From positions 1 to 34,292 of IMG/VR virus record IMGVR_UViG_3300025674_000178: 34,292 nt of DNA. One strand, 5' to 3'. This document shows, in pieces, positions 32,030 to 32,693 of this stretch (its first letter is position 1; each line of letters starts with the position of its first letter). The position numbers and the translations under genes are program-made. This stretch comes from a virus. Under the pieces are notes generated by a model. It was not told where the DNA came from and searched no databases. It saw nothing but the letters and a program-made list of their open reading frames with translations.

Positions 32030-32058
32030 ATTATAGTTAAAAAAAAGAGGGGTGTCAA
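32030..32058 (-). promoter_or_regulatory. Perfect sigma70 consensus promoter TTGACA-17-TATAAT
   Basis: -35 TTGACA (32053-32058), exactly 17 bp, -10 TATAAT (32030-32035). The -35 lies across the loop of the terminator hairpin (32046-32067) and contains the TGA stop of the 51-aa gene. The spacer holds the terminator's T tract. Expected to be a strong early promoter for the 55-aa gene, thyX, phoH and the nuclease. Confidence 0.9.
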
Positions 32059-32067
32059 GACCCCTCT
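32039..32067 (-). terminator. Strong intrinsic terminator for the riboswitch operon
   Basis: On the minus strand, AGAGGGGT-CTTGAC-ACCCCTCT (perfect 8-bp, GC-rich) with an 8-T tract. The hairpin includes the last codons and stop of the 51-aa gene. Confidence 0.88.
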
Positions 32068-32210
32068 GATTTAAATAATTTTTCAAACCATTCCACTAGA
32101 TGAACACGGTAACAAGACCAATAACGACACCCACGATATGTTAAAAGATAACAAGCAGGACCCCTATTGTCCTTGTCCATATCATCATAGTGATAACGGT
32201 AATTTTCCAT
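32055..32210 (-). CDS. Tiny conserved cyanophage protein, 51 aa
   Basis: MENYRYHYDDMDKDNRGPAC then YLLTYRGCRYWSCYRVHLVEWFEKLFKSEGS. Aromatic-rich with three Cys and a TYRGCRYWS core, which echoes the YRG motif of the upstream DUF4278-like gene. ATG shares a base with the stop of the 28-aa gene (TAATG). Its stop codon is inside the terminator loop and inside the -35 of the next promoter. No function known; the sequence style is familiar from marine cyanophages. Last gene of the riboswitch operon. Confidence 0.75.
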   Translation of the reverse strand: MENYRYHYDDMDKDNRGPACYLLTYRGCRYWSCYRVHLVEWFEKLFKSEGS

Positions 32211-32296
32211 TACCTATTGAGTAATAGAACTTCAATATATATGAGATAAATGAATGCTGTTGATGCACCTGCAATAGCTGCAATCATGGCAATCAC
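32210..32296 (-). CDS. Tiny membrane-type peptide, 28 aa (GTG start)
   Basis: Reads (GTG)IAMIAAIAGASTAFIYLI then YIEVLLLNR. A single hydrophobic stretch (residues 2-24) followed by NR suggests one transmembrane helix. GTG 32296 is preferred because it overlaps the previous stop (GTGA) and has AGGA about 8-11 nt upstream; ATG 32287 (25 aa) is the alternative. The stop couples to the next gene (TAATG). The position between two conserved micro-genes with exact coupling argues that it is real. It may act at the host membrane. Confidence 0.6.
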   Translation of the reverse strand: MIAMIAAIAGASTAFIYLIYIEVLLLNR

Positions 32297-32391
32297 TTTC
32301 CTGCTCCTGCGTTTGCAAGCAGTGCTTGGTGACGACGTTGCTCTTTTTGCTTTTGCTCTTTAATGAGTTGAAGCACGTTGAGTTTTTTCAT
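32293..32391 (-). CDS. Tiny basic peptide, 32 aa
   Basis: Reads MKKLNVLQLIKEQKQKEQRR then HQALLANAGAGK. One highly charged amphipathic helix, net positive. The start shares a base with the DUF4278-like stop (TGATG) and the stop overlaps the next GTG start. The 3' end encodes the AGGAGCAGGAAAG ribosome site for the membrane peptide. No homologue is recognised; support comes from the unbroken chain of coupled junctions. Confidence 0.58.
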   Translation of the reverse strand: MKKLNVLQLIKEQKQKEQRRHQALLANAGAGK

Positions 32392-32528
32392 CACTTATGA
32401 CCCTCCTTAGTAAACTTAACACCACGATAGGTTTCGTTGTACTGTTGGGGTTGTTGCATCATCTGCTGTTGATACTCCAGACGCTTTTGGGTATCATACT
32501 CGATGCCACGATATACTACTTTAGCCAT
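32391..32528 (-). CDS. DUF4278-like small protein (45 aa), first gene after the riboswitch
   Basis: Starts MAKVVYRGIEYDTQKRLEYQ, then QQMMQQPQQYNETYRGVKFTKEGHK. Two YRG strands (VVYRGIEYD, ETYRGVKFT) joined by a Gln-rich helix match the DUF4278 pattern of cyanobacteria and cyanophages. The start was set at ATG 32528 because a perfect GGAGG lies 9-13 nt upstream; the longer frame runs through the structured leader. It is directly downstream of a glutamine-riboswitch-like RNA, where DUF4278-type genes are known to occur. Function unknown; regulation by nitrogen status is likely. Confidence 0.82.
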   Translation of the reverse strand: MAKVVYRGIEYDTQKRLEYQQQMMQQPQQYNETYRGVKFTKEGHK

Positions 32529-32555
32529 TAGGATTTTCCTCCAGAATGAGATTTT

Positions 32556-32658
32556 TAGGCCCCGTTCCTTCGGGCGGTTTGCGTTTGCTATTTGCGAATA
32601 GCAAATGAACGTTCCGTTCCGCCGTCCTACTTGCGTCAGAGTTTCCTCTGATGAACGT
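32556..32658 (-). promoter_or_regulatory. Glutamine riboswitch-like leader RNA (glnA / Downstream-peptide class)
   Basis: The minus-strand RNA begins at the predicted +1 with P1 strand CGTTC (32657-32653) and ATC, then hairpin CAGAG-GAAA-CTCTG (32637-32650), the conserved GACGCAAGTAGG (32626-32637), stem GGCGG/CCGCC (32619-32623 with 32573-32577) and the conserved CGAAGGAACG (32563-32572), whose GAACG closes P1. These elements, in this order, are the core of the glutamine riboswitch class. The P3 insertion holds an extra perfect 9-bp hairpin (32584-32605). A GGAGG ribosome site and the DUF4278-like gene follow. Confidence 0.82.
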
Positions 32659-32664
32659 AAGGTC

Positions 32665-32693
32665 ATTATAGACCCGATACTCTATCTATGCAA
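32665..32693 (-). promoter_or_regulatory. Sigma70-type promoter TTGCAT-17-TATAAT
   Basis: -35 TTGCAT (32688-32693), 17-bp spacer, perfect -10 TATAAT (32665-32670). The predicted +1 near 32658 coincides with the first paired base of the riboswitch, supporting both calls. Confidence 0.85.

Follow-up and report, generated by a model that had tools for sequence, protein, structure and literature searches.

The window, a stretch of 34,292 nucleotides from the viral record IMGVR_UViG_3300025674_000178, encodes thyX, phoH and speD, and the isolated phages that it matches at DNA level are without exception Synechococcus phages. Its minus strand carries a glutamine-riboswitch element, preceded by a predicted promoter and followed by a run of small open reading frames (ORFs). 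The sequence elements named in the initial annotation, which gave no strand, are all present on this strand, GACGCAAGTAGG and CGAAGGAACG among them. In the direction of transcription, the features are:

32688..32693, minus strand: -35 box TTGCAT of a sigma-70-type promoter, from sequence (relatives TTGACT or TTGCAT, 16-18 nt from the -10 box)
32665..32670, minus strand: -10 box TATAAT, inverted repeat GGTC/GACC on both sides (32661-32674)
about 32658, minus strand: predicted +1, the first base of P1
32653..32657, minus strand: outer P1, 5' strand, CGTTC #1 (RF01739; partner 32563-32567)
32636..32651, minus strand: P2a hairpin TCAGAG-GAAA-CTCTGA (two-sided changes among relatives)
32633, minus strand: N1 (C), paired over long range with N4 (G, 32562); all 282 of 282 unique doubles are complementary here
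32628..32631, minus strand: AGTA, 5' part of the outer aptamer's AGTA/GAA motif (conserved alignment columns)
32622..32627, minus strand: shared P3, 5' strand GGACGG (covaries with 32572-32577)
32615..32619, minus strand: inner P1, GAACG #1, in the 3' half that serves the circularly permuted inner aptamer (RNAalifold; compensated variants)
32614, minus strand: N2 (G), partner of N3 (C, 32581), complementary in 265/282, of which 8 are C-G
32607..32611, minus strand: inner P1, CGTTC #2 (RNAalifold; compensated variants)
32584..32605, minus strand: P2b hairpin (9 bp) of the inner aptamer, TTTGCTATT-CGCA-AATAGCAAA (two-sided changes)
32581, minus strand: N3 (C), partner of N2
32572..32577, minus strand: shared P3, 3' strand CCGCCC (covaries with the 5' strand)
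32569..32571, minus strand: GAA, 3' part of the outer aptamer's AGTA/GAA motif (RF01739 match; conserved columns)
32563..32567, minus strand: outer P1, 3' strand, GAACG #2 (RF01739; RNAalifold; pair counts)
32562, minus strand: N4 (G), partner of N1
32538..32542, minus strand: Shine-Dalgarno sequence GGAGG, from sequence (in relatives the start codon lies about 30-34 nt past N4)
32391..32528, minus strand: ORF1, 45 aa, two YRG repeats, DUF4278-like (Pfam and phrog matches)
32293..32391, minus strand: ORF2, candidate 32-aa basic peptide (reading frame only)
32210..32287, minus strand: ORF3, candidate hydrophobic peptide of about 25 aa (reading frame only)
32055..32210, minus strand: ORF4, candidate, 51 aa, one YRG (reading frame only)
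32046..32067, minus strand: intrinsic terminator, 8-bp stem followed by seven T, from sequence

We take AGTA/GAA in the outer aptamer to be a loop-E-like motif. The promoter, TTGCAT-17-TATAAT (32693-32665, minus strand), ends 7 bases before P1. The proposal in the initial annotation that +1 coincides with the first base of P1 is supported by this spacing, and the end of the -10 box lies 7-8 nt from P1 in 67 of 121 relatives as well. The inverted repeat GGTC-TATAAT-GACC around the -10 box is also found upstream of many homologues, with many different arm sequences; flanking arms of at least 4 bp occur in 107 of 257 distinct homologous promoters and in 28 of 771 shuffled controls.

When the whole window is searched with Rfam models, positions 32659-32559 (minus strand) match the Glutamine riboswitch family RF01739 at 35.1 bits (E 4e-4), barely passing the gathering score of 35 bits. 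The glutamine-riboswitch leader of the initial annotation is thereby retained as a type 1 element, the glnA model giving a match above threshold, but its second candidate family is not: against Glutamine-II (Downstream-peptide, RF01704) the window reaches 22.8 bits for a cut-off of 33, and its second half alone is matched. RF01704 also stands ahead of small DUF4278-type ORFs, in marine picocyanobacteria; unlike it, the window has GAAGGAACG and AGTA/GAA, which are type 1 features. The outer core follows the order CGUUCA-P2-GACGNAAGUAGG-P3-GAAGGAACG with P1 pairing, and the homologue in S-H34 scores 43.7 bits against RF01739. With a covariance model built from 35 phage relatives, the window left out, the window scores 87.1 bits (E about 6e-18), and judged by such sequence scores the element is far beyond chance. 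Family membership suggests that the window RNA binds glutamine.

The RF01739 match joins CGUUCAUC...GACGCAAGUAGG to CCGAAGGAACG across 52 unmodelled bases, which contain GGAACG, a second CGTTCAT, a hairpin and ACGCAAA-CCGCCC. This single match bridges two aptamer cores and does not describe one aptamer with a decorated P3. The initial annotation had placed an extra 9-bp hairpin in a P3 insertion; the hairpin is real, but on comparative grounds it is P2b of a second, circularly permuted aptamer core, and the supposed insertion is that core, with P3 common to both. Cross-pairing of the halves is what the 282 unique phage homologues show: an outer aptamer from the first 5' half and the last 3' half, a permuted inner one from the first 3' half and the second 5' half, and one P3 helix that joins the two. 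The layout recurs in viral contigs, typically with GGAACG at about +35, CGTTC at about +44 and GGAACG at about +76 or +87; the same inner layout is found in S-PM2, S-H34 and S-CAM7.

The N positions discriminate between this scheme and a tandem. In single aptamers the base after GACG is complementary to the base after GAACG in 39 of 40 cases. Among the unique doubles, the cross pairs N1-N4 and N2-N3 are complementary in 282 and 265 of 282, the tandem pairs N1-N2 and N3-N4 in 178 and 175; the C-G and G-C states of N1-N4 are clade-structured (tree minimum of 2 changes), so that these sequence counts overstate independence. Changes in P3 and at N2-N3 are more frequent than those at N1-N4, and smaller sets of 124-125 doubles give the same picture for both cross pairs. 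The quartets C,C,G,G and G,G,C,C (N1 to N4) both occur, which is explained by cross pairing only. From 67 doubles aligned by MAFFT without constraints, RNAalifold, unguided, recovers P2a, the outer P1 and, for the inner core, the GAACG/CGTTC hairpin. Counted over the dumbbell scheme, 99.7% of cells are paired, 10 pairs have two-sided changes, and two-sided cells number 172 against 47 in shuffles; a shift of one to three columns abolishes this signal. For the tandem scheme the two diagnostic pairs do not hold up, with 49% (N1-N2) and 48% (N3-N4) paired. The P3 arms covary between the cores in many forms, among them GGACGG/CCGCCC, AGCCGACT/AGCCGACT, AGCCGACG/CGCCGACT, GGTCG/CGACT and GGTTAACG/CGTTAATT.

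Most search patterns fixed the letters of the inner P1, and its near-invariance is therefore partly by construction; P3, the N positions and the scans for P1 variants, in which the partner base could be any letter, escape this effect. The inner P1 variant scan gives 17 matches, 15 of them genuine doubles and 2 due to chance. All 15 genuine variants are compensated, as CAACG/CGTTG or AAACG/CGTTT (7 unique sequences among the 282), so that the cross pair is kept and tandem pairing is broken. In the sole outer P1 variant, L389, CGTTT pairs with AAACG past an intervening ORF. The phages L001, L003 and L087 carry apparent half elements in which N1 is G and N2 is not C; cross pairing forecasts a second half with C at both N3 and N4, and it lies past an ORF in each. 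A scan for GGAACGC gave some ordinary tandems, but most of its matches were due to chance.

How else might these data be read? Two complete aptamers in series, acting as a pseudo-cooperative switch (PMC9481103), would be an obvious candidate, given how common tandem glutamine riboswitches are in the literature, and true ordinary tandems do exist in the related viral contigs L044, L290 and L166. Each copy there has its own P3 and an intact GAAGGAACG, whereas in the doubles the P3 arms covary across both cores, the cross pairs outnumber the tandem pairs and the P1 variants abolish the tandem pairing; we consider this reading very improbable for the window. The same low weight goes to a lone glutamine aptamer with an irrelevant P3 insertion. 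Rfam scores the element in just this way, but the inner elements are conserved through compensatory change, and their layout is the same in S-PM2, S-H34, S-CAM7 and many viral contigs. The initial annotation had further proposed that the second CGTTC competes for the GAACG strand of P1; this CGTTC turns out to be the inner P1 partner of GAACG at 32619-32615. An exchange of strands between the two CGTTC copies, with the tandem fold as OFF and the dumbbell as ON, could draw on the mutual complementarity of the four P1 strands in most sequences and on an energy calculation that yields an alternative fold: the window's unconstrained minimum-energy fold is not the dumbbell and lies 2.4 kcal/mol lower. 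Against it, the tandem fold of the window is less stable than the dumbbell by 7.4 kcal/mol (-20.4 versus -27.8 kcal/mol), and the P1 variants, in which such an exchange would be impaired or lost, are nonetheless maintained in phages that carry the same operon. Because 15 of 15 inner P1 variants keep the inner pair and break the tandem pairing, strand competition can be no more than a secondary state, and as the main explanation it is improbable.

Two further readings accept the fold and differ in what it does. Glutamine could bind in the outer pocket only, with the inner core as a structural clamp that stiffens P3. The inner core has no counterpart of the outer AGTA/GAA motif, so its binding may be weak or absent altogether, the simple N2-N3 pair is missing in 17 of 282 doubles, and P2b tolerates ORF inserts; but two-sided changes preserve N2-N3 (C-G in 8 of 282) and compensated ones the inner P1, and a mere clamp would have no need of the pocket position N2-N3. 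On balance we find a purely structural inner core somewhat unlikely. Alternatively, the glutamine-aptamer fold may have been retained for a different task, for instance in RNA processing, RNA stability or the binding of a protein. Glutamine binding is here argued from family membership, and ORFs and an endonuclease-like gene are inserted in the loops, which would suit such a role; the pocket-forming N pairs and the association with DUF4278, on the other hand, match a known gene-control family (PMC6316151), and we regard a different role as quite improbable.

The loops of the double aptamers tolerate insertions. P2b exceeds 60 bases in 137 of 282 doubles and P2a in 68, and in many relatives a small ORF replaces the P2b hairpin. 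The insert of L001, L003 and L087 is an ORF of about 50 codons, which starts at P2b and stops in the outer core's GAA. ORFs in P2a or P2b loops (phrog_504 and a related kind) are also seen in L005, L006, L370, L374, L382 and others; since such ORFs start at a P2 stem and stop inside the aptamer, the C-terminus of the peptide is encoded by the riboswitch. In L056 (near 1265, minus strand), a homing-endonuclease-like ORF (phrog_314, 9e-6) occupies the inner P1 loop. Closely similar hairpins of the TTCGCTATTCGCAAATAGCGAA type serve as P2a in some phages and as P2b in others (L373 and L376 compared with P2b of the window), which suggests an exchange of P2 modules. In L012 (6046-6167), L030 (11957-12082), L011, L023 and L046, single aptamers carry about 60-100 bases inserted in P3, and this insert is conserved; neither ARAGORN (4 loci) nor Rfam (3 rescanned) found a permuted tmRNA in these long-P3 single aptamers.

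In the sets searched, the double form appears nearly confined to phage DNA. RF01739, as single aptamers, is found in 83 of 251 host-family genomes, the double model in one, and that genome has a phage-like contig. Six double matches in contigs of bacterial or archaeal genomes all lie beside T4-like phage genes by ORF reading; on this context, and with the 1 in 251 genomes, we reject a host-genome origin of the double.

A small ORF with a YRG motif comes first after the double in 115 of 120 cases, usually 29-37 nt downstream. ORF1 of the window reaches 19.9 bits (E 0.001) against Pfam PF14105 (DUF4278), below the cut-off of 25.3, and 1.5e-11 against phrog_5049; its homologue in L010 scores 51 bits against DUF4278. 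That the element tunes early genes, as initially annotated, is too broad a claim: a terminator (32067-32046) follows four small ORFs, and a separate promoter for the next genes comes after it. Since this terminator closes the run from ORF1 to ORF4, the most likely target of the switch is a short small-protein operon, as opposed to the neighbouring thyX or phoH. The second promoter, a 12/12 sigma-70 match, overlaps the terminator hairpin (32067-32030, minus strand) with its -35 box TTGACA in the terminator loop, and the end of one transcript is the beginning of the next. That the downstream ORFs might be related to the IF7 portion of the host inactivating factors was considered and dropped; the one solved-chain match of a YRG-fusion homologue is a designed protein (E 1.5). 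An expression platform common to all relatives was looked for and not found. Relatives with C at N4 (e.g. L251, L254) often have CTCTTT right after GAACG, overlapping N4 and complementary to AAGGAG at the Shine-Dalgarno site, a candidate anti-Shine-Dalgarno sequence; the class with G at N4, to which the window belongs, is without it.

What the comparison establishes at sequence level is the pairing scheme, its conservation and its position between a promoter and a DUF4278-like ORF. We put a probability of roughly 0.72 on the reading that the element is a dumbbell of two type 1 cores with a common P3, acting as the glutamine-responsive leader of a DUF4278-like operon. According to this model, an early-type phage sigma-70 promoter would give an mRNA whose first ~96 nt fold into two facing glutamine-aptamer cores, the outer one built from 5' half #1 and 3' half #2, the inner, permuted one from 3' half #1 and 5' half #2, with a 3-nt loop closing the inner P1. 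Both pockets would bind L-glutamine, and occupation of one may favour the other via P3; we infer this coupling because P3 is common to both cores and the P3 of a single aptamer changes on binding. Coupled pockets would give a steeper response to a weakly bound ligand. Glutamine would then raise translation of the DUF4278-like operon, by analogy with the ON direction of host type 1 and type 2 switches, and the phage would make DUF4278-like peptides when its host is nitrogen-replete. Tentatively, and at somewhat less than even odds, we would go further and see in the dumbbell a single cooperative sensor with two pockets, one of them a natural circular permutant, that evolved in cyanophages, makes a sharp switch out of a weak, graded glutamine signal and sets it over peptides related to one domain of the inactivating factor of host glutamine synthetase. 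If so, translation of the loop genes that end inside the sensor might disrupt or read it.

The glutamine riboswitch as such is already known from T4-like cyanophages, and so are tandems of it. Glycine riboswitch aptamers stand side by side and are not two junctions with a common helix, one of them permuted. As a dual aptamer, with two same-ligand aptamers per leader, the glycine riboswitch nevertheless resembles the window's element (PMC9481103). Glutamine tandems are common (157 doublets) and have been proposed to sharpen the response (PMC9481103); they too hold two cores per leader, but each aptamer is complete, whereas the window's element exchanges halves and has one P3 for both cores. Host glutamine aptamers mostly precede DUF4278 genes, the glutamine synthetase (GS) inactivating factor IF17 being the studied case, and activate expression upon glutamine binding (PMC6316151). 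RF01739, the glnA motif (host gifB/IF17 leader; S. elongatus glnA motif), shares with the window's outer core the consensus, the three-way junction and the loop-E-like motif, and both precede DUF4278-type genes; the window differs in its two cross-paired cores, single P3 and permuted inner core, in lying in viral DNA, and in a predicted transcript start at P1. Close precedents, of the same family and phage kind, are elements of cyanophages and other marine phages. The available portions of three papers describe RF01739 elements in S-CREM1 (PMC9964418), S-PM2 as an Rfam member of RF01739 whose family's single aptamer changes the shape of P3 on binding (PMC6806525), and glutamine riboswitches in Melnitz and Mosig, that of Melnitz linked to tmRNA (PMC9004378); in those portions they are Rfam matches without a paired architecture, and S-PM2 itself (L002) has the double form. 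Within the open-access literature searched, the cross-paired double with a common P3 seems new.

Single-aptamer covariance models misread doubles as insertion-bearing aptamers or borderline matches. A riboswitch doublet normally consists of one complete aptamer after another; exchanged halves and a common structural helix are a different way of coupling two binding sites, and the permuted core is a natural case of circular permutation in a riboswitch. Widespread marine cyanophages carry the double, and none was found here on host chromosomes. Two questions become testable: whether phages evolved a nitrogen sensor sharper than that of their hosts, and on which host pathway the DUF4278 peptides act.
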